This document shows positions 12,886 through 39,013 of a stretch of DNA of 52,194 bases, piece by piece. The notes under the pieces were generated by a model. It was not told the origin of the DNA. It made no database searches and was given only the letters and a program-made list of their open reading frames with translations. Made by a program: the position numbers and the translations under genes. The stretch is from NCBI GenBank assembly GCA_002840275.1, contig PHAB01000023.1:1-52194 (forward strand), given 5' to 3'. Source of the DNA: Firmicutes bacterium HGW-Firmicutes-14. Lineage in GTDB: Bacteria; Bacillota; Thermincolia; Thermincolales; UBA2595. The stretch's first letter is position 1, and each line of letters begins with the position of its first letter.

Positions 12886-14247
12886 TTATTTTAGAACCCC
12901 TGCATCATGGGGCTTAACCGCTGCAGTTCGCATAACAAAATCACCATATGCAGACATACCGTGTTCACCGATATCCAGGCCTTCCACCTCTTCTGCAGCC
13001 GATACACGCAAACCTACAGTTACTTTAATAATACCGAAAAGAATAAAGGCAGCTGTAACCGTCCACAGGAATACCGAGCCAACTCCGATAACCTGGGTAA
13101 CCAGCTGGGCAGTTCCACCTCCATACAGCAGTCCGCCGTCAACAGCGAAGACACCCACCATAATCGTCCCAAAGGCCCCACAAACACCGTGAACGGAAAT
13201 TGCACCTACAGGGTCATCAATTTTCACAACTCTGTCAAAGAACTCTACTGAAAATACCACCAGGATGCCTGCCAGTGCGCCGATTAACGCTGCTCCTGCC
13301 GGGCTTACCGCCGCAGTTCCGGCAGTAATTGCCACCAGACCGGCCAAAGCGCCATTGAGGGTCATGCTGACATCAGGCTTACCATATTTGATCCAGGTAA
13401 CTATCATAGTCAGGACAGCCCCGGCTGCTGCTGCCAGGTTAGTGGTTACAGCAATGGCAGCAATATCAGGGGTAGTGCCGGAAACAGTGCTTCCCGGGTT
13501 GAACCCGAACCAGCCGAACCACAGAATGAACACACCCAGGGCTCCAAGAGTAATGCTGTGACCGGGAATGGCGTTCACTTTACCGTCTGCTGAATATTTG
13601 CCCATACGGGGTCCGAGAAGAAGCGCCCCTATCAAGGCTGCCCAGCCGCCTACTGAGTGGACAACGGTCGAACCGGCAAAATCGATCATACCTCTTTCAG
13701 CCAACCAGCCGCCTCCCCAGATCCAGTGGCCTACAACCGGGTAAATAACCGCACTGATAACAATACTGTAAATCAGGTAAGATGTGAACTTTGTACGTTC
13801 AGCCATGGCGCCTGATACAATGGTTGCAGCCGTGGCACAGAATACGGTCTGGAACAGCAGGAATGCCGGGAGGGGAATTGACAGCCCCAGGTGTTCAAAC
13901 AGCCCGGTGGTGCCAAAGCCGGTTGTACCAATGAAACCTGCCTTATCAAGACCAAACATGAGGGCAAAACCTACCAGCCAGTAAACAACGGAACCTGCCG
14001 CAAAATCCATCAGGTTTTTCATGATGATATTACCGGCATTCTTTGCCCTGGTAAACCCGGTCTCTACCATGGCAAAACCGGCCTGCATAAAGAACACCAG
14101 GAAAGCTGCAATCAGGGTCCAGACAGTATCCAAGGCTGCAGCATTGGATTCGGCAGTGGGGCCTTCATCAGCGGCCCAAGCAGCACCAATGCTAAACAGG
14201 AACAGAAGTATTGTAATAATAGCTGCACGCAAATACTTATTTTTCAT
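12886..14247 (-). CDS. amt: Ammonium transporter (Amt/MEP/Rh family), copy 2
   Basis: This 453-residue integral membrane protein has a cleavable-looking N-terminal signal (ending AWA) and eleven hydrophobic segments. Amt signatures include DTVWTLIAAFLVFFMQAGFA, GGWAALIGALLLGPR and WFGWFGFNPGS, with the channel His pair in FAGSTVVHSVGG and SVHGVCGAFG. It conducts ammonium or ammonia into the cell. A ribosome site (AAGGAGGAG) precedes ATG 14247. It lies 250 bases after the PII gene, and that spacer has two terminator hairpins with ANTAR-like loops, so its expression seems separately controlled from amt copy 1 and PII. Confidence 0.93.
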   Translation of the reverse strand: MKNKYLRAAIITILLFLFSIGAAWAADEGPTAESNAAALDTVWTLIAAFLVFFMQAGFAMVETGFTRAKNAGNIIMKNLMDFAAGSVVYWLVGFALMFGLDKAGFIGTTGFGTTGLFEHLGLSIPLPAFLLFQTVFCATAATIVSGAMAERTKFTSYLIYSIVISAVIYPVVGHWIWGGGWLAERGMIDFAGSTVVHSVGGWAALIGALLLGPRMGKYSADGKVNAIPGHSITLGALGVFILWFGWFGFNPGSTVSGTTPDIAAIAVTTNLAAAAGAVLTMIVTWIKYGKPDVSMTLNGALAGLVAITAGTAAVSPAGAALIGALAGILVVFSVEFFDRVVKIDDPVGAISVHGVCGAFGTIMVGVFAVDGGLLYGGGTAQLVTQVIGVGSVFLWTVTAAFILFGIIKVTVGLRVSAAEEVEGLDIGEHGMSAYGDFVMRTAAVKPHDAGVLK

Positions 14248-14285
14248 TAGAATCTCCTCCTTAAGTTTCGTTTATAGGTAAGCAG

Positions 14286-14365
14286 AAAACGCTCTCCAGG
14301 CCGGGAAGACGCCGGATTCCCGTCCCGTGAGAGCGCCACTGCTCTACCGGCAATAAGATAATCGC
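14286..14365 (-). promoter_or_regulatory. Leader of amt copy 2: hairpins plus terminator, ANTAR-type
   Basis: On the minus strand the order is stem GCGAT/ATTGC with loop TATCTT (14365-14350), then stem AGAGC/GCTCT with six-base loop AGTGGC (14345-14330), then a terminator CGCTCTC/GAGAGCG followed by TTTTC (14335-14286). The second hairpin has the A1 and G4 loop bases known for ANTAR targets, and its 3' arm is the terminator's 5' arm. The first loop does not fit the consensus. Confidence 0.6.
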
Positions 14366-14387
14366 TGAAAAGATACATCACGATATC

Positions 14388-14431
14388 AAAAAAGACGCTC
14401 TGCAGAGTATCCATATACCCCGGAGCGTCTT
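14388..14431 (-). terminator. Terminator after PII gene, possibly regulated
   Basis: GACGCTC (minus strand from 14429) pairs with GAGCGTC, followed by TTTTTT. Upstream is a perfect five-pair stem AATAC/GTATT with loop TACGAT (14455-14440) and an AAAGAC segment next to the terminator arm, so this too may be an attenuator. Confidence 0.7.
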
Positions 14432-14494
14432 TGCGGTTTAATACATCGTAGTATTATATATTCCATTTTTCAAAAAACCTTTCAGCAGGCGGTC

Positions 14495-16224
<1,730 letters not shown>

Positions 16225-16264
16225 CGGCGTCACCCCTAATGGAAAAATTTCTATTCAAACAAAA

Positions 16265-16341
16265 ATACTCTCTTCAGGAACCGGCGCCAATTCCTAAACG
16301 AGAGCATCTTTGCTCAAACCTGAAGCAAACTATAGTTTTGC
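16265..16341 (-). promoter_or_regulatory. Second attenuator in the amt-glnK leader
   Basis: On the minus strand: hairpin GCAAA..TTTGC (16341-16325, seven-base loop), then GAGC/GCTC with six-base loop AAAGAT (16315-16302; A1, G4), then a terminator CTCTCGTTTAGGAA / TTCCTGAAGAGAG followed by TATTTTTGTTT (16306-16265). The hexaloop stem shares GCTC with the terminator arm, so the two are mutually exclusive. Confidence 0.62.
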
Positions 16342-16367
16342 CTTGGTCAATGAAAACCCCAAAAACA

Positions 16368-16432
16368 AAAAACGCCTTAACGGGGGATACCCCATCAAAG
16401 CGTCAGTGCTTGCCTGATACATCAATGTACCG
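16368..16432 (-). promoter_or_regulatory. ANTAR dual-hexaloop antiterminator in amt-glnK leader
   Basis: On the minus strand the leader reads GGTAC-ATTGAT-GTATC (16431-16416), a short linker, then AAGC-ACTGAC-GCTT (16411-16398). Both loops are exactly six bases with A at position 1 and G at position 4, which is the established recognition motif for ANTAR RNA-binding proteins. The 3' arm GCTTTG is part of the following terminator stem (ACGC...GCGT then TTTTTT, 16403-16368). Binding would stabilise the hairpins and let transcription continue into amt-glnK. Confidence 0.82.
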
Positions 16433-16449
16433 GTATTTAATTTAGATTT

Positions 16450-16478
16450 ATTATAGCACGACTGAAATAGTGGGTCAA
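16450..16478 (-). promoter_or_regulatory. Promoter of amt-glnK
   Basis: TTGACC (16478-16473), 17 bases, then TATAAT (16455-16450). This is a near-consensus housekeeping promoter. Transcription would start just before the dual-hexaloop motif, which begins at 16432. Confidence 0.8.
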
Positions 16479-16572
16479 TACCCTTGGCAACATTTTGGCA
16501 ACTTTTCTCCACCTTTGGCATAAAATAATTGCAAAGTAGGTAATCCGGCACAACGGCGTACCGGACCGAAAC

Positions 16573-16620
16573 TGGCAATGAGGCCACAAGGAAGTATCCT
16601 TGTGGCCTTAAATATTTTGG
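16573..16620 (+). promoter_or_regulatory. ANTAR-type attenuator in the asnB leader
   Basis: TGGC-AATGAG-GCCA (16573-16586) is a four-pair hairpin whose six-base loop has A1 and G4. It overlaps GGCCACAAGG (16582-16591), which pairs with CCTTGTGGCC (16598-16607), followed by TTAAATATTTTGG. An upstream stem CCGG/CTGG (16561-16574) has a seven-base loop ACCGAAA, so the pair is not a perfect dual motif. The T-tract is also weak. Confidence 0.6.
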
Positions 16621-16647
16621 ACGTGCTCAAGGGAGGATTTGTTTTTA

Positions 16648-18492
16648 ATGTGTGGAATAACAGGTTGGATTGACTGGGAAAAGGACCTGACCCAACAGGC
16701 CAGGGTTCTGGCGGCAATGACAGGAATCCTGGCAAACCGCGGCCCTGATGCCGAAGGCTGCTGGATATCGCCCCGTGCTGCCCTGGGCCACCGCCGGCTG
16801 GCGGTAATCGATCCTGAAGGCGGAGGCCAGCCTATGTCCCGCAGGAGCGGAAACCGGCAATATATCATAGTCTATAACGGAGAACTCTATAATACTGCTG
16901 AACTCCGGCATGAACTGGCAGTCTGCGGGTATTCCTTCTCCGGACATTCGGATACTGAAGTCCTGCTTACCGCCTATATTGAATGGGGGCCGTCCTGTCT
17001 GGAAAAACTAAATGGGATATTTGCCTTTGGAGTCTGGAGTGAAGAAGACCAGAGCCTGTTCCTGGCCCGTGACCGGATGGGTGTTAAGCCCCTCTTTTAT
17101 GCCGAACGGAATAAGTCCTTCCTGTTTGGTTCCGAGTTAAAGGCCCTTCTGGCACATCCCGATATCGACCCGGTGATTGACAAAGAAGGCCTGTCAGAGA
17201 TATTTGTTCTTGGCCCTGCCCGGACTCCGGGACATGGTGTTTTCCGGGGAATCAGTGAACTCCGGCCAGGCTGCTGCCTGATACACAACCGGATGGGCAC
17301 CAAAATCCGGAAGTACTGGGAACTGGAAAGCAGGCCCCATGAAGATGACCTTGAGACTACCACCGAAAAAGTACGAGGTCTGGTCTTTGACGCCATTAAA
17401 AGGCAATTGGTGGCTGATGTGCCAGTCTGTACCTTTTTGTCCGGAGGCCTTGACTCCAGCGCCATAACGGCTGTAGCCGCCCAGCATTACAACGAAGAGA
17501 GAAAAGGTTCCCTTCATACTTACTCGGTGGATTTTGCCGGCAATGACCGTTTTTTCCGGGCCAGCCATTTTCAGCCCAATTCCGATGCCGATTGGGTTCA
17601 TAAGGTATCAGGTTTCTTCGGAACGGACCACCATTATGTTTGTTTTGATACTCCCCAGATGGCGGAGTCACTTAAAGAGGCAGTTGTCGCCCGTGACCTC
17701 CCCGGCATGGCTGACATTGACTCTTCTCTCCTGTTGTTCTGCCGGGAAATCAAAAAAAGTCATACGGTTGCCCTTTCAGGTGAATGTGCTGACGAGGTTT
17801 TTGGCGGGTATCCCTGGTACCGCTCAACAGAAAACATGGATACCGGTTCATTCCCATGGTCTGGTCATATTGATACAAAGATGCAGGTTTTTTCCCGTGA
17901 ATTGGTTAAATATATCCACCCGGAAGAATATATGGCACAGAGGTATTATGAAACCCTGGCCGATACACCCGCCCTGCCCGGAGAAAATCCCGCAGAAGCT
18001 GATAAACGGAAGATGTTTTACCTAAATTTCCACTGGTTCATGCAGACACTTCTGGATCGCAAGGACCGGATGAGCATGGCAGTCGGCCTCGAGGTAAGAG
18101 TCCCCTTCTGTGACCACCGGATAGTGGAATACGTATGGAATATCCCCTGGTTCATGAAGACATGTGGCAGCATGGAGAAAGGCATCCTGCGCCGCGCCCT
18201 GCAGGGCGTGCTGCCAGAGGGAGTCATCCGCCGGAAGAAAAGTCCCTATCCCAAGACTCACAATCCTTCATACCTGGCAGCAGTCAGGAAAGTCCTCCTG
18301 GATATATTGAATGACCCGGCTTCACCACTGCTCCGGGTAATTGACATAAAAACAGTCCGCAGGATGTGTGAAACAGAGAATGATACCTTTGACCGGCCGT
18401 GGTTCGGCCAGCTGATGACCGGACCCCAGCTGCTCGCGTACCTGATACAGGTCGATATCTGGATGAGAGAGTACAGGGTGCGAATCACGTAA
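16648..18492 (+). CDS. asnB: Asparagine synthase (glutamine-hydrolysing), class B
   Basis: This 614-residue enzyme starts at MCGITGW, whose Cys2 is the amidotransferase nucleophile; the start at 16639 is not used because processing requires this Cys at the N-terminus. The glutaminase domain (1-~200) shows RGPDAEG, LGHRRLAVID and NGELYN. The synthetase domain has the PP-loop SGGLDSSAI (~270), SGECADEVFGGYPWY and MAVGLEVRVPFCDHRIVEY. It makes asparagine from aspartate, ATP and glutamine. GGGAGG precedes the start. A leader hairpin with an ANTAR-type loop places it in the nitrogen regulon next to the divergent amt-glnK operon. Confidence 0.95.
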   Translation: MCGITGWIDWEKDLTQQARVLAAMTGILANRGPDAEGCWISPRAALGHRRLAVIDPEGGGQPMSRRSGNRQYIIVYNGELYNTAELRHELAVCGYSFSGHSDTEVLLTAYIEWGPSCLEKLNGIFAFGVWSEEDQSLFLARDRMGVKPLFYAERNKSFLFGSELKALLAHPDIDPVIDKEGLSEIFVLGPARTPGHGVFRGISELRPGCCLIHNRMGTKIRKYWELESRPHEDDLETTTEKVRGLVFDAIKRQLVADVPVCTFLSGGLDSSAITAVAAQHYNEERKGSLHTYSVDFAGNDRFFRASHFQPNSDADWVHKVSGFFGTDHHYVCFDTPQMAESLKEAVVARDLPGMADIDSSLLLFCREIKKSHTVALSGECADEVFGGYPWYRSTENMDTGSFPWSGHIDTKMQVFSRELVKYIHPEEYMAQRYYETLADTPALPGENPAEADKRKMFYLNFHWFMQTLLDRKDRMSMAVGLEVRVPFCDHRIVEYVWNIPWFMKTCGSMEKGILRRALQGVLPEGVIRRKKSPYPKTHNPSYLAAVRKVLLDILNDPASPLLRVIDIKTVRRMCETENDTFDRPWFGQLMTGPQLLAYLIQVDIWMREYRVRIT

Positions 18493-18644: not shown

Positions 18645-20519
18645 TCAATTTTTGCTCTTATTCCTTTCAATCTCTTCGACCAGTTCATTCAGATATGCCC
18701 ATCGTTCCAACAATTCATCCAACTGTTCTTCCAGATCCTGCTGCATACCGGTCAATTCCTGCAGGAGCAAGAAGTCACTCCCGGCAGCATTTATTTTGGC
18801 ATTCACCTCGTTTAGCTCCTTTTCCACCCCGGCTATTATTTCATCTATCTGTTCGAATTCTTTCTGTTCTTTAAAGGTTAATTTCAGGGGACGGGCTTTT
18901 TCCCTCCCGTAGTTGAGGTATACCCTCCCCCCTCCGGCTTCATCTGCAGCAGTATCGCTGGCAGAACCTGAGTCCTTAATTACGTTCGCGGATGCCTTTG
19001 ATTCCGATCTGGCAGCTTCCGCCGCCTCCGACCGGGCAGATTCCAGGTATTCTGAATAATTTCCGTGGTAACAGGCAACCCTGCCTTCTCCGGTAAATAC
19101 CAGTATTTTGTCTGCCATCCGATCCAGGAACCAGCGGTCATGAGAAACAGCAATAACCACTCCGGGGAATTCGTCCAGGTAGTCTTCCAGGATTGTCAAA
19201 GTCATTATATCCAGGTCATTGGTGGGCTCGTCCAGGAGCAGGACGTTTGGTGCACCCATCAATACCCGCAGTAAATACAGCCTCCTCCTCTCCCCGCCGG
19301 ATAATTTACCGATGGGGACCCACTGGAGTTCCGAAGGAAACAGGAACCGCTCCAGCATCTGGGCGGCGCTGATTAATTTACCGCCGACAGTTGGCAGATA
19401 CTCGGCCTCTTCTTTTATATATTCTATAACTCTCAGGTTGTCATCCATTTCCCTGCCTTCCTGGGAAAACAACCCGGTTTTCACGGTCAGGCCCTTATCT
19501 ACTATCCCGTCGTCAGGTTTAACCCTGCCGGAAATAATGTTCAGCAGAGTAGATTTTCCTGCGCCATTAGGTCCGATTATCCCCACCCGGTCTTCTTTTG
19601 AAAAAGTATAGCTAAAATCATCAATCAGTATATTTCCTGAGAATCCTTTACTTATATGATCCAGGGCAATTACCTTCTTACCCAGGCGGCTGGAACCGGC
19701 CGATATTTGAATATTACCGGGACCGGCTTCCGGTTTGTCCGCCTTGAGCCGTTCGAACCTGTCGGTTCTGGCCTTTTGTTTGGTAGTCCGGGCCTGGGCC
19801 CCCCTCTTAATCCACTTCAGCTCATTGCGCAGGAGGTTCAGCCGTTTCTGTTCAGTTGAATGTTCCTGTTCCTCCCGGTCTGCCTTCAATTCAAGAAAAT
19901 TCCGGTAGTTACCGGTATAGGTAAACAGCCTGCCGCGGTCCAGCTCTATTATACGGTTTACCACCCGGTCCAGAAAATACCTGTCATGGGTAACCATTAG
20001 CAGAGCGCCTTTGCGCCTGTTCAGATACTGTTCCAGCCAGGAAACGGTTTCATTGTCGATATGGTTTGTCGGTTCATCAAGGATCAACAGCTCTGCCGAC
20101 CTGATTAATGCCCCGGCCAGGGCCACTCTTTTTCTCTGCCCCCCGGAAAGGGTGCCTACCCTGGCATCGAAATCATAAATCCCGAGCCTGGTCAGGATGG
20201 TTTTGGCTTCACTTTCAACCTGCCAAAGGTCTGCCGCCGGTATGGAAACACCAAAAAAAACCTGCTGCAGGACTGTGGCTGCATCGTCAAAAACAGGATT
20301 CTGGGGCAGGTATTCAATGCGCGCAGAATTTGCAGCAACAACCCTGCCACTGTCAGTTGCCTCAACACCTGCCAGGACTTTCAATAAAGTTGACTTGCCT
20401 GTGCCATTAGTACCTATCAGGCCGATTTTATCTCCTTCGTCTATACCAAAAGATATATCCCGGAACAGGGTTTTTATCCCATATGCTTTTGCTATGTTTT
20501 CAACAGAAATCACATTCAT
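18645..20519 (-). CDS. uup: ABC-F ATPase, Uup type
   Basis: This 624-residue soluble protein has two ABC ATPase domains. The first has GTNGTGKSTL, LSGGQRKRVALAGAL, ILDEPTNHID and VTHDRYFL; the second GPNGAGKSTL, LSGGERRRLYLLRVL, LLDEPTNDLD and VSHDRWFL. Between them is a charged linker (~240-290) and after them a coiled-coil C-terminal domain (~540-624, rich in E, L and K), the mark of Uup. ABC-F proteins act on ribosomes, and Uup has also been linked to DNA replication and precise transposon excision. It has no membrane domain. The C-terminal start of the linker (a SARSEAAEAARSESKASANV-like stretch) is low complexity. Confidence 0.92.
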   Translation of the reverse strand: MNVISVENIAKAYGIKTLFRDISFGIDEGDKIGLIGTNGTGKSTLLKVLAGVEATDSGRVVAANSARIEYLPQNPVFDDAATVLQQVFFGVSIPAADLWQVESEAKTILTRLGIYDFDARVGTLSGGQRKRVALAGALIRSAELLILDEPTNHIDNETVSWLEQYLNRRKGALLMVTHDRYFLDRVVNRIIELDRGRLFTYTGNYRNFLELKADREEQEHSTEQKRLNLLRNELKWIKRGAQARTTKQKARTDRFERLKADKPEAGPGNIQISAGSSRLGKKVIALDHISKGFSGNILIDDFSYTFSKEDRVGIIGPNGAGKSTLLNIISGRVKPDDGIVDKGLTVKTGLFSQEGREMDDNLRVIEYIKEEAEYLPTVGGKLISAAQMLERFLFPSELQWVPIGKLSGGERRRLYLLRVLMGAPNVLLLDEPTNDLDIMTLTILEDYLDEFPGVVIAVSHDRWFLDRMADKILVFTGEGRVACYHGNYSEYLESARSEAAEAARSESKASANVIKDSGSASDTAADEAGGGRVYLNYGREKARPLKLTFKEQKEFEQIDEIIAGVEKELNEVNAKINAAGSDFLLLQELTGMQQDLEEQLDELLERWAYLNELVEEIERNKSKN

Positions 20520-20555: not shown

Positions 20556-22061
20556 TTACACCGGCAGGGTGATTATTACTTTTGTCCCTTTGTTCAGGGC
20601 ACTCTCAACAGCAATGCTGCCCCCATGTCTCTCAATAATCCACTTGGCTATGGAAAGTCCCAGTCCGGTACTGCCGCCCTCCCTGGTCCTTGATTTATCA
20701 CATTTATAAAAACGGTCAAAAATATGGGGTAAATCTTCACTTGATATACCGATACCGTTATCTTCGATTTCCACAACCCCCGTATTTCCTTTTACCCGGC
20801 CCTCTATTTTAATTGTGCCACCCGCGGGGGTGTACCTGATACTGTTATCAAGAAAAACCCTCAAAGCCTGTTTAATTAATTTCCTGTCGCCGTTGATAGA
20901 AACAATACCGGTTACCTCTCCTTTTACGGTATGTTCGGTGTCTATCAGTTTGGTTTCCTTCATTAATTCATTAACCAACTCACTCAGGGAAAATAATGTC
21001 TTCTCAATTTTTTGTGTGTTTTTGTCGGCCCTGGCCAGGAAAAGAAGGCGTTCCACCAGGTCCTTCATGTTTTCTGCCTCGTTCTTTATGGCGCTCACAG
21101 ATTCATCCAGAACAGCCTTATCCTCCTTGCCCCATCGCTGCAGGAGATTAGCATAACCCTGAATCACGGCGATAGGAGTCCGCAGTTCATGAGAGGCATC
21201 GGAAACAAACCGGTCCTGCTGTTCATAAGAGGCCTGAATCCGGTCAAGCATATCATTAAAGGTCTCAGCCAGGTCCTTCAGTTCATCATGGGAATCCACG
21301 ACACTGAGCCGGGTGTTCAGGTCTGCAGCAGATATGGCTTTTGCCGTGCCAATCATATTATCTATCGGTTTAAGCATTTTCCTGAGGATGCGGGAACCAA
21401 TCACCACTGTAAACAGAACAGCCGGAACAAAGCCGGCTAAAACTATACATGTCAGAATAACCAAAAATAATTTCCCTTCCCAAAGGGGTTTAGAGAGCTG
21501 CATATAGTAAATGTAATCACTACTAGAATTTCGGTCAACAAAAAGATGAACGTATTTGGCAGTAACCAAAAAACCGGGAGCAGTGTTGGTTTCATTGAAT
21601 ATGTCAGCCTGGTCGTGTTTTGCGGCAGTAGTGTATATAATATCACGCTGTTTGTCAAACAGGGTGATAATGATCCCCTCAATTTGAGCATATTTTTTCA
21701 ATCCGGATACAGGTATACCGCTGCTTTCAGGTATACCTGCGGTGTCAAGAGTACCGCCGGTGCCAGTCAGATAATTTTCCGTAACCAGGGCGTTTTTTTC
21801 CAGGACATTTCTATCCTCATACAAAAGAAAAGCGCCAAAAGCTGTTACCATTATGATACTCAGCACAAAAAGAACCGCAGAAAAGATAAGGGCATAGATA
21901 GCGGCAGTCTTAAAGGTTATTGAAAACCTTAACCTTTTGTTAATGCCCTTTTGCAGCTCTTTCAGCGCCTTTGCCGCAAGAGTGACCGCCAGTCTCAACC
22001 CGCGGGCTGTAAGAGTAACTATCAATTTAAGGGTTTTGGCAAATACGCTTGCTTTACTCAT
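20556..22061 (-). CDS. HAMP-containing sensor histidine kinase
   Basis: This 501-residue membrane kinase has TM1 at ~45-76, an extracytoplasmic sensor loop of ~110 residues, TM2 at ~193-222, HAMP, then HisKA with FVSDASHELRTPIAVIQGYA (phospho-His) and an HATPase domain with DNGIGISSEDL, DRFYKCDKSRTREGG and GLGLSIAKWI. The signal sensed is unknown. The N-terminus is unusually long (44 basic, helical residues before TM1). Its start overlaps the stop of the response-regulator gene by eight bases, so the two form one operon and a cognate pair. Confidence 0.92.
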   Translation of the reverse strand: MSKASVFAKTLKLIVTLTARGLRLAVTLAAKALKELQKGINKRLRFSITFKTAAIYALIFSAVLFVLSIIMVTAFGAFLLYEDRNVLEKNALVTENYLTGTGGTLDTAGIPESSGIPVSGLKKYAQIEGIIITLFDKQRDIIYTTAAKHDQADIFNETNTAPGFLVTAKYVHLFVDRNSSSDYIYYMQLSKPLWEGKLFLVILTCIVLAGFVPAVLFTVVIGSRILRKMLKPIDNMIGTAKAISAADLNTRLSVVDSHDELKDLAETFNDMLDRIQASYEQQDRFVSDASHELRTPIAVIQGYANLLQRWGKEDKAVLDESVSAIKNEAENMKDLVERLLFLARADKNTQKIEKTLFSLSELVNELMKETKLIDTEHTVKGEVTGIVSINGDRKLIKQALRVFLDNSIRYTPAGGTIKIEGRVKGNTGVVEIEDNGIGISSEDLPHIFDRFYKCDKSRTREGGSTGLGLSIAKWIIERHGGSIAVESALNKGTKVIITLPV

Positions 22062-32963: not shown

Positions 32964-33569
32964 TTACCTCTTTTTCTTCTTAATATTTTCCTCGGAAATC
33001 TCATAGGCCATAATTACCGCTTCGGCCACTTTTTTCATTGGTGTCCTTTTTTTCATACTCTGTTGCTGCATCTTTTTAAATGCTGCCCCCTCTGACAGGC
33101 CGTGAACCCTCATCAGGATACCTTTCGCTTTTTCGACGACCTTCCTTGTTTCCAGGTCACCCCTGAGGCGTAACACTTCATGCTCCAAATTAACCATTTT
33201 AGTATAGGCCATGTGGGAATACTCCAGAACAGAAAGCAGCTGAAACTCCTCAAAAGGTTTGACCAGGACGGGGAAGGTCCACCTGTCATGGTGGTTCCGG
33301 ACCAGTTCCTTTTCGGCATAATCCACCATAAGGACTACCGCCGCCAGCCTGCCTTCCTCGATTATATGGGCCAGTTCAAGTCCGGTCATACCGGGAAGAC
33401 CGGCTTCCGCCAGGACCAGTTCGGGCTGGATTGCCCGGACCATCTTCAGGGCAGACATACCATCCCCTGAATCACCTACTACCAAGTACCCTGACTGGGT
33501 AAGCATCTCTTTTAGGTTTTTTCGGAAAGTGTCATCCTGCTCAGCAATGACAACCCGTATGCGTTCCAT
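32964..33569 (-). CDS. ANTAR-domain antiterminator with degenerate receiver (Glu at phospho-site)
   Basis: This 201-residue protein has an N-terminal receiver-like domain, a coiled-coil linker (~120-145) and a C-terminal ANTAR RNA-binding domain (VEKAKGILMRVHGLSEGAAF, then KKMQQQSMKKRTPMKKVAEA). The usual phosphoacceptor Asp is Glu55 (LVLAEAGLPG), while the upstream acidic residues (QDD) and VLVKPF Lys remain. It therefore cannot be phosphorylated in the normal way and may mimic the active state. ATG 33569 follows CAGGAG. Its likely targets are hexaloop leaders of amt, asnB and the glutamate-synthase-like gene that directly precedes it. Confidence 0.9.
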   Translation of the reverse strand: MERIRVVIAEQDDTFRKNLKEMLTQSGYLVVGDSGDGMSALKMVRAIQPELVLAEAGLPGMTGLELAHIIEEGRLAAVVLMVDYAEKELVRNHHDRWTFPVLVKPFEEFQLLSVLEYSHMAYTKMVNLEHEVLRLRGDLETRKVVEKAKGILMRVHGLSEGAAFKKMQQQSMKKRTPMKKVAEAVIMAYEISEENIKKKKR

Positions 33570-33704
33570 TCTTTCACAACTCCTGTCCATGGCCGGCGCT
33601 TGTATTAATTATAATATAAGAGGTCCCAACATCCAAGGACAACAGGAATACAATACTACATGAGTTTTGAAAATCCTTCATTTTTCGTAACCGGTAATCT
33701 AAAA

Positions 33705-37078: not shown

Positions 37079-38410
37079 TTAATAAATTGGCAGGTATTTA
37101 TCTAGTTCCCACTGATGAACATGGCTCTCGAATCCGGCCCATTCGGTTTCCTTGGCTTCAATATATTTTTGGGCCAGAATTTCTCCAACAGTCTCTGTTA
37201 CCAGCCTGTCCTGTTTCATAAGCTGGACCGCTTCAAAGAGATTCCGCGGCATTTGATAAATACCCCGTTCCATACGCTCCTGTGGTGTCAGGCAATACAA
37301 GTTATCAGAAACAGCTGCGGGGGGAACGGTTTTATTTTTTACTCCTTCAAGTCCGGCCTTAAGCATTACGGCAATGGCAAGATACGGATTACAGGCTGAA
37401 TCAGGGTTACTCATTTCAACCATGGTATCATCACCTCTTTCAGAATGTATCCTGACCACAGCATTACGGCTTTCTGAAGACCAAGCCACATAACCCGGGC
37501 TAATGGCCCCCGGCACCAGTCTCTTATAGGAGTTGATAATAGGATTGGTAATAGCTGCAAATGAATGTGCATGCCTGATCAATCCGCCAATATAATAAAG
37601 AACGGTTTCACTCAATAGTGTTTCCCCTTCGGGGTCATAAAACACATTATCAAATTCCCTGAAAAAGGCCTGGTAAATATGAAGAGCAGAACCGTTATAT
37701 TTATTAACGGGTTTTGGCATAAATGAAGCATACAGGCCATGCCTCCTGGCAATTGTGCGCGCCACAAATCGGAATGTGACCAGTTTATCGGACATTGTAA
37801 GGGCATCATCACTTTTTAGTGATATTTCATTTTGTCCCGGAGCAAATTCGTGATGAGAAGAACTGATTTCAATCCCCATCTCCTCCAAAGTCAAAACCAT
37901 ATCACGCCGGGCATTTTCACCAAGGTCAATGGGTGAGACATCACAGAACCCTGCGAAGTCATGAGCTGCAGTGGTCGGTTTATCTTTTTCATCTACATGA
38001 AAAAGATAAAACTCCGATTCCGCTCCAACCATCGGCCTATAACCCTCTGATTCTATTTCAGCCACAACTCTTTTCAGAACACTGCGGGAACAGCATTCGT
38101 ATGGCGATCCGTCCGGGTTTACAACATCACATATAAGTCTGGCTACAGCGCCTTCCCTTGGCCTCCAGGGAAAAATCACAAAACTTGACAGGTCAGGTAT
38201 AAGGCAAATTTCCCGTTCTTTATTACTTACCTTACCGTCTATTATTGAACTGTCAAACCTTATTCTTCCCTGCAAGGCTTTATCAAGTTCTTCTACCGTT
38301 ATGGCAATATTTTTAAACACTCCAAAAATATCGGTGACCTGTAATCTGATAAACTTGACATTGTTCTTCTCGGCCTCTTCAAGAACATCCTTTTTGGTCA
38401 GGTCTTTCAT
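37079..38410 (-). CDS. Glutamine synthetase-like protein (GlnA family) with altered active site
   Basis: This 443-residue protein is clearly of the GSI family: start MKDLTKKDVLEEAEKNNVKF, AESEFYLF, HHEFAPGQ, NSYKRLVPG and C-terminal HVHQWELDKYL. Several normally invariant residues differ: DGSSIEG is DSSIIDG (53-59), GQHE is GQNE (Asn194), NGSGMHxHQSLF is NGSALHIYQAFF (239-250), TRVE is TMVE (Met330) and VELR is VEMS (Ser334). The last two Arg and the second His contact substrates or nucleotide in known enzymes. It may therefore use another amine or acid, or be regulatory. It lies 12 bases after an ANTAR gene, in one operon. Confidence 0.85.
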   Translation of the reverse strand: MKDLTKKDVLEEAEKNNVKFIRLQVTDIFGVFKNIAITVEELDKALQGRIRFDSSIIDGKVSNKEREICLIPDLSSFVIFPWRPREGAVARLICDVVNPDGSPYECCSRSVLKRVVAEIESEGYRPMVGAESEFYLFHVDEKDKPTTAAHDFAGFCDVSPIDLGENARRDMVLTLEEMGIEISSSHHEFAPGQNEISLKSDDALTMSDKLVTFRFVARTIARRHGLYASFMPKPVNKYNGSALHIYQAFFREFDNVFYDPEGETLLSETVLYYIGGLIRHAHSFAAITNPIINSYKRLVPGAISPGYVAWSSESRNAVVRIHSERGDDTMVEMSNPDSACNPYLAIAVMLKAGLEGVKNKTVPPAAVSDNLYCLTPQERMERGIYQMPRNLFEAVQLMKQDRLVTETVGEILAQKYIEAKETEWAGFESHVHQWELDKYLPIY

Positions 38411-38422
38411 TATATCCCACTC

Positions 38423-39013
38423 CTATCTCTTAGCCTTATTACCCTCCAAAGCCTTTATTATCTGTTTCGCCACATTCTGTACAGGCAGGCATTTGTCCAT
38501 ACTGACCTGTTGAATATATTTATAGGCCTGCTGTTCAGTCATGCCCTTGGCTTCAATCAGTAAACCTTTTGCCCGGTCAATGGTTTTACGTTTCTCTAAT
38601 ATTTGCTTTAGTTTCTGATTTATCTCTTCCAAATGGCGAATTCTTTTAAATACAGCCCCACAAACTTCAATAGCAGGATAAAGGTTTATTTCATCAACAG
38701 GTTTGAGAATATATGAAATGTTCCAATGCCCGAGGGCATGTATTATGTCATCCTGTTTGTCTGGCTCAGTAATCAAAATAACCGGAGCCACACGATGTTC
38801 ATCGATTATTTTCGCAACTTCCAGGCCGCTTCTGCCCGGTAAGTGCATGTTCATGATGGCCAGGTCCGGCAGGGTGTTAAAAACCACTTGCAGGGCCTTT
38901 CGTCCATCGGCAGCTTCCCCGATTATTAAGTGCCCGGCATTGATTAATTTCTCTTTTATGTGCTTTCTGAACACGGGATCGGGATCGGCCAGAACAATTC
39001 GCAAACCGTACAT
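38423..39013 (-). CDS. ANTAR-domain antiterminator with degenerate receiver (Asn at phospho-site)
   Basis: This 196-residue protein has the same layout as the 32964 protein: receiver-like domain, short coiled coil (IRHLEEINQKLKQILEKRKT) and ANTAR domain (DRAKGLLIEAKGMTEQQAYK, then YIQQVSMDKCLPVQNVAKQI). The phosphoacceptor Asp is Asn55 (LAIMNMHLPG), so phosphorylation is not expected. It is encoded between alanine racemase (its ATG overlaps that stop as TAATG) and the glutamine synthetase-like gene. In Clostridium saccharobutylicum an ANTAR protein, NitR, is likewise encoded beside glnA. It may regulate this or other nitrogen leaders. Confidence 0.9.
   Translation of the reverse strand: MYGLRIVLADPDPVFRKHIKEKLINAGHLIIGEAADGRKALQVVFNTLPDLAIMNMHLPGRSGLEVAKIIDEHRVAPVILITEPDKQDDIIHALGHWNISYILKPVDEINLYPAIEVCGAVFKRIRHLEEINQKLKQILEKRKTIDRAKGLLIEAKGMTEQQAYKYIQQVSMDKCLPVQNVAKQIIKALEGNKAKR

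Follow-up and report, generated by a model that had tools for sequence, protein, structure and literature searches.

The RNA targets of ANTAR antiterminator proteins were defined as dual-hexaloop elements by Ramesh et al. 2012, with matches upstream of genes for P-II proteins, ammonium transporters, nitrogenase, and glutamine and glutamate synthases, and Desulfotomaculum acetoxidans has at least 13 ANTAR elements distributed among six transcription units (PMC3369931). The criteria for such targets are stems of at least 3 bp in each hairpin and a linker that spans 5–12 nt in the eut leaders of Enterococcus faecalis and 2–25 nt in actinobacteria (PMC3369931, PMC8164766). EutV binds to a single hexaloop, yet antitermination requires both hairpins with a limited linker between them (PMC8934654).

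The locus described here lies within a window of 52,194 nucleotides, the whole stretch of DNA that was analysed, from Firmicutes bacterium HGW-Firmicutes-14 (all coordinates without a contig name refer to this window). Its organization closely follows that of the nitrogen-gene RNAs of Ramesh et al. 2012 (PMC3369931): there are two hairpins whose six-base loops have A at position 1 and G at position 4 (A1/G4), the second hairpin (P2) overlaps a terminator, the element precedes genes for an ammonium transporter and a P-II protein, and there are several elements per transcription unit. It departs from them in being found in Thermincola-group genomes, in the relaxed first position of the loop of the first hairpin (P1), in a second tandem unit that is often a lone hexaloop, and in a divergent element upstream of asnB. 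With EutV/EutW and the eut leaders of E. faecalis (PMC3369931, PMC8934654) it shares the same RNA logic and EutV-related receiver-ANTAR proteins, but the targets here are amt and glnK, the ANTAR proteins encoded in the window lack a phospho-acceptor Asp, and no kinase was found to be linked to these proteins. As in the AmiR/AmiC and NasR/NasT systems (PMC3369931), it is nitrogen genes that are under ANTAR antitermination; beside the ANTAR genes examined here, no AmiC, NIT or NasS partner was noticed. The first-pass annotation of this region had linked ANTAR antitermination to ammonium uptake and PII; the link is supported but is not new, as the type of system was already known from the ANTAR targets listed by Ramesh et al. 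2012 upstream of ammonium transporters and P-II genes. In the literature searched we found no connection between ANTAR and Thermincola. The new features are the tandem attenuators of the amt1 and amt2 leaders (two in each), of which the second is often a lone A1/G4 hexaloop set on a terminator, and the divergent asnB element. The unit noted in the first-pass annotation is thus one of about five around the amt genes, and these belong to a wider nitrogen regulon.

The first element, A1, is located in the amt1 leader on the minus strand; the first-pass annotation named no strand, and folding of the plus strand gave nothing. There are several parts. First, a sigma-70-type promoter at 16450..16478 (TTGACC-17 nt-TATAAT, with an extended -10 TG) matches the consensus at 11 of 12 positions, and its -35 and -10 hexamers and the TTAAATA that follows are kept in relatives. 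Such a near-consensus promoter had been noted before, and its placement within about 10 bases of the hairpins holds approximately, with P1 beginning 18 nt past the -10 hexamer and about 11 nt past the likely transcription start site. Second, the predicted recruitment hairpin P1 (GGTAC-ATTGAT-GTATC; 16416..16431) is followed after 4 nt by the predicted antiterminator hairpin P2 (AAGC-ACTGAC-GCTT; 16398..16411), so that the two adjacent six-base loops, ATTGAT and ACTGAC, both with A1 and G4, are present as first described. The stems are of 5 bp and 4 bp, above the 3 bp minimum, and the linker is short, being 1 nt under the range seen in E. faecalis. Third, the 3′ half of P2 forms the 5′ arm of an intrinsic terminator with a 15 bp stem and a U tract (16361..16404), bearing out the shared arm that had been proposed; TTTTTTGTTTTT directly follows the stem (16404..16371). 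P2 is recognized in the sequence, in the fold, in orthologous leaders and by the covariance model described below, and the terminator is indicated by compensatory changes in relatives. None of the 4227 families in Rfam gave a match at gathering score.

The strict form of this motif requires P1 of at least 5 bp, P2 of at least 4 bp, A1/G4 in both loops and an overlapping terminator. There is a single occurrence of it in the window, whereas 0.017 would be expected in a shuffled window. When the terminator requirement is dropped there are two occurrences in the window versus 1.2 expected in shuffles, and it is therefore the coupling to a terminator, not the hairpin pair, that is improbable. In free-RNA folding the terminator is far more stable than the dual hairpin, which is favored only marginally in the leader RNA: it forms at one RNA length, and a shorter transcript folds otherwise, suggesting that a switch between the two states would need a protein. 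That the pair taken alone is no rarer than chance in 52 kb, and that free-RNA energies so strongly prefer the terminator, would both fit with a plain intrinsic terminator, or an attenuator that works without a factor, near which two small hairpins occur incidentally. This explanation nonetheless seems highly improbable to us, since P1 and P2 are kept in all ten orthologous leaders even though the terminator makes no use of P1, and since a model built on both hairpins finds nitrogen genes throughout the genome and the phylum.

The order to which this genome belongs is represented by 10 genomes, all of which have an amt1 orthologue, and the promoter, P1, P2 and the terminator are present in 10/10 of the orthologous amt leaders of this Thermincola group. 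The G4 of the loop is found in every leader in both P1 and P2, as is the A1 of P2; A1 of P1 is found in eight of the ten, with G at this position in the two others and U in the A2 elements described below. P2 stems are short, at 2–4 bp, and the upper terminator stem varies with compensatory changes among relatives. P1 is nearly invariant among the amt1 orthologues; G-C/A-U changes in P1 are seen across 26 elements, some of which were chosen for their pairing. In a pattern scan, most of the named records that share this leader are MAGs of the Thermincola group, and two further matches have the appearance of chance.

The same 26 elements of the order, which include the second sites before amt2, were used to build a 32-nt covariance model (R2), with which A1 scores 36.6 bits. 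A search of this kind, which the first-pass annotation had proposed as a check, returned independent matches before amt, glnA, nifH, asnB and ANTAR genes. Within the same genome, sites outside the training set are located before a nifH-family gene (C2:6771), before the gene for the ANTAR protein ANTAR3 followed by glnA (C15:291085), and before another glnA (C15:279604), placing the element in a nitrogen-assimilation regulon of which an ANTAR gene is itself a member. Relatives have matches before the same gene classes and also before asnB. Among 398 genomes of the phylum, 25 outside the order have matches at E<=0.003, and of 20 loci examined outside the order 18 are before genes of these kinds (five glnA, five ANTAR genes, three amt, three nifH, one nitrogenase component-1 gene and one asnB); the other two are a pyridine-nucleotide oxidoreductase gene and a site with no usable ORF. 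The matches are independent evidence for a nitrogen-gene ANTAR target as predicted from sequence. Three matches were judged to be due to chance: one before a prismane/CO dehydrogenase-family gene (C39:198047) and two in the window (20004–20063 and 21964–21994). The anatomy of the leader, its ten orthologues, the presence of four ANTAR proteins in the genome and the matches before nitrogen genes uphold the proposal that an ANTAR-target antiterminator precedes amt-glnK, and it is very probable, by every sequence criterion that could be applied, that the amt leader carries such an element, which is evolutionarily conserved.

Two further sites stand apart. A weak ANTAR-element match (21 bits; C23:15641, locus L133), with a GC-rich hairpin and a T-tract, lies before a sigma-54 activator gene. 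In another genome (G005:C22:18275-18303, locus L036) an ANTAR-type dual hexaloop is located upstream of a uroporphyrinogen-decarboxylase-family gene that is divergent from amt1, an unusual target.

The genes downstream of A1 are all on the minus strand and include amt1 (14830..16224), an ammonium transporter gene whose profile match (TIGR00836, 489 bits) was obtained on ORF 14830-16233; glnK (14495..14833), whose product is a P-II family protein with matches below the equivalog cut-offs; and a second ammonium transporter gene identified by profile match, amt2 (12886..14247). The comparison of leaders places the amt1 start at the ATG at 16224, which follows the Shine-Dalgarno (SD) sequence AGGGGTG; there is an in-frame GTG upstream at 16233. 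The leader of amt2 contains an element similar to A1, denoted A2 (AATAC-TACGAT-GTATT and CGC-AAAGAC-GCT; 14424..14455), in which P1 has G4 but U1 and the P2 stem is of 2 bp. It scores 37.9 bits with R2, of which it is a training sequence, and similar elements precede amt2 in relatives. Its intrinsic terminator is GACGCTC...GAGCGTC-TTTTTT (14388..14429).

Behind each of these elements is a second attenuator. In the amt1 leader this is B1, a lone hexaloop hairpin (GAGC-AAAGAT-GCTC, A1/G4; 16302..16315) lacking an intact P1 and matched by a separate model, R1, in 10/10 genomes of the order. In the predicted fold its 3′ arm doubles as the 5′ arm in a second intrinsic terminator (16257..16305), the apical loop of which contains an invariant GGCGCC, and the 16253-16322 region as a whole has a folding z score of -7.6. 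In the B1 of the window the P1 position has no G4 hexaloop hairpin of at least 3 bp, and P1 is degenerate or absent at this place in relatives; because the P1 hexaloop upstream of P2 is missing, we class B1 as ANTAR-like and not as a full ANTAR-target member. In the amt2 leader the corresponding unit, B2 (14332..14387), has two hairpins, GATAT-CGTGAT-GTATC and, after a long linker, GAGC-AGTGGC-GCTC, and scores 22.1 bits with R2 (E 0.0011) although it is outside the training set. It is joined to a terminator-like hairpin (GCTCTC...GAGAGC-GTTTTCTGCTT; 14280..14334) with the loop CGGCGTC and a folding z score of -4.8. All of these are on the minus strand.

The high conservation of B1, which within the order equals that of element A and extends to an invariant apical loop, raises the question of a small-molecule riboswitch (e.g. 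for glutamine) with B1 as its aptamer. However, there is no Rfam family match, and element A has two hexaloops and the regulon membership of an ANTAR target. In the amt leaders of other families (loci L166 and L175) the hexaloop behind element A again stands alone, as GAGC-AxxGxx-GCTC, and has a terminator of its own but not the GGCGCC apical loop, which is specific to the order. We consider a riboswitch very unlikely. As the other families keep both hexaloop and terminator without the GGCGCC loop, these two parts represent the core of B, and this core fits with a reduced ANTAR unit as far as its sequence goes.

An alternative is that element A is an ANTAR target while B1 and B2 are further terminators or sites of RNA-RNA interaction. 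The P1 of B1 is, as noted, missing or degenerate, and the apical loop of B2 (CGGCGTC; 14308–14314, minus strand) is the exact complement of GACGCCG, the spacer between the SD sequence and the AUG of amt1 (16225–16231, minus strand), which is kept in 10/10 amt1 start regions. Against this, the B1/B2 hexaloop has A1/G4 in every copy and overlaps a terminator arm as does an ANTAR P2, the distant matches of R1 include amt, glnA-type and ANTAR genes, and the B1 loop pairs with its own start site less well than does the B2 loop. Pairing of the loop with the start codon region is retained solely as a rival function for B1 and B2 because of this poorer fit and the absence of covariation; the alternative as a whole is a sizeable possibility short of an even chance. 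The B2 loop is also nearly complementary to the apical loop of B1 (GGCGCCG; 16282–16288, minus strand), possibly reflecting an RNA-RNA interaction.

We tentatively propose, as a reading that is rather less likely than not, that the second of the two attenuators in both amt leaders would be a ‘half-site’ ANTAR switch. It would consist of one A1/G4 hexaloop joined to a terminator, would have no hairpin for recruitment, and would stand some 90 nt past a full dual-hexaloop unit. The first unit might pass its protein on, or a different (pseudo-receiver) ANTAR protein might act here. If so, expression of the ammonium transporter would require two consecutive decisions.

On the opposite strand, an ANTAR element precedes the divergent asnB (16639..18492, plus strand; TIGR01536), which codes for a glutamine-hydrolysing asparagine synthase, and the amt1/asnB intergenic region thus has ANTAR units on both strands. 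In the minimum free energy fold of this element (16545..16586) both hexaloops are formed, P1 being CCGGCAC-AACGGC-GTACCGG with one C-A mismatch and P2 TGGC-AATGAG-GCCA, and the sequence of a terminator overlapping P2 follows (16579..16610). It scores only 7.7 bits with R2, probably as a consequence of the C-A mismatch in P1 and the GC-rich stems, and its identification therefore rests on the fold and on alignment with the ANTAR elements of asnB leaders in four other genomes.

The four ANTAR proteins of this genome are ANTAR1, ANTAR2, ANTAR3 and a EutV-like protein, and each of the 10 genomes of the order encodes between three and seven. Two are encoded in the window, both on the minus strand: ANTAR1 (32964..33590), a receiver-ANTAR protein with Glu at the phospho-acceptor position, and ANTAR2 (38423..39013), a receiver-ANTAR protein with Asn at this position, whose gene is upstream of a glnA-family gene (37079..38410, minus strand; TIGR00653 above cut-off). 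ANTAR3 is encoded on contig C15 between amt3 and glnA. All three have orthologues across the order, in which the position is Asn in ANTAR2, Glu, Ala or Ser in ANTAR1, and Asp in ANTAR3 (Glu in one). The two proteins of the window are pseudo-receivers, as are their Asp-lacking orthologues order-wide. The receiver-ANTAR proteins are related to EutV (ANTAR3 matches 6wsh with E 4e-29), and the positions aligned to Lys143 and Met172, the RNA-contacting residues of EutV (PMC8934654), are invariant in all four proteins of this genome. An ANTAR3 orthologue directly follows the amt cluster in 8/10 genomes and an element precedes its own gene, and for these reasons ANTAR3 is the likelier candidate partner of the amt leader, as judged from gene context. 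ANTAR1 and ANTAR2, without a phospho-acceptor Asp, may not be that partner, and may act through partner binding. AmiR is controlled through a partner protein, not by phosphorylation. The EutV-like ANTAR protein is encoded at C5:70000-82000 (locus L029) in a eut cluster that also codes for a kinase; a quick scan covering two intergenic regions of this cluster revealed no convincing dual hexaloop with a terminator.

We infer the following course of events at the amt genes. By default, RNA polymerase would start about 11 nt upstream of P1, the terminator would take up the 3′ arm of P2, and transcription would end before amt1. An active ANTAR protein, presumably under nitrogen limitation, would bind to the A1/G4 hexaloops of A1, hold P2 together, block the terminator and so allow read-through into amt1. 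The polymerase would then meet the second attenuator, B1, in which a single A1/G4 hexaloop hairpin is joined to another terminator; B1 may respond to an ANTAR protein in turn. The amt2 leader would repeat this pair as A2 and B2, and the divergent asnB would be served by an element of its own.

ANTAR antitermination thus appears to be wired to core nitrogen assimilation in the Thermincola group – ammonium uptake, P-II, glutamine and asparagine synthesis, and nitrogen fixation – which offers a ready regulon. With the tandem units and three conserved ANTAR paralogues, of which two groups are without a phospho-acceptor, it becomes testable what the nitrogen signal is and whether one hexaloop suffices for antitermination, the latter a question that the EutV structure left open.
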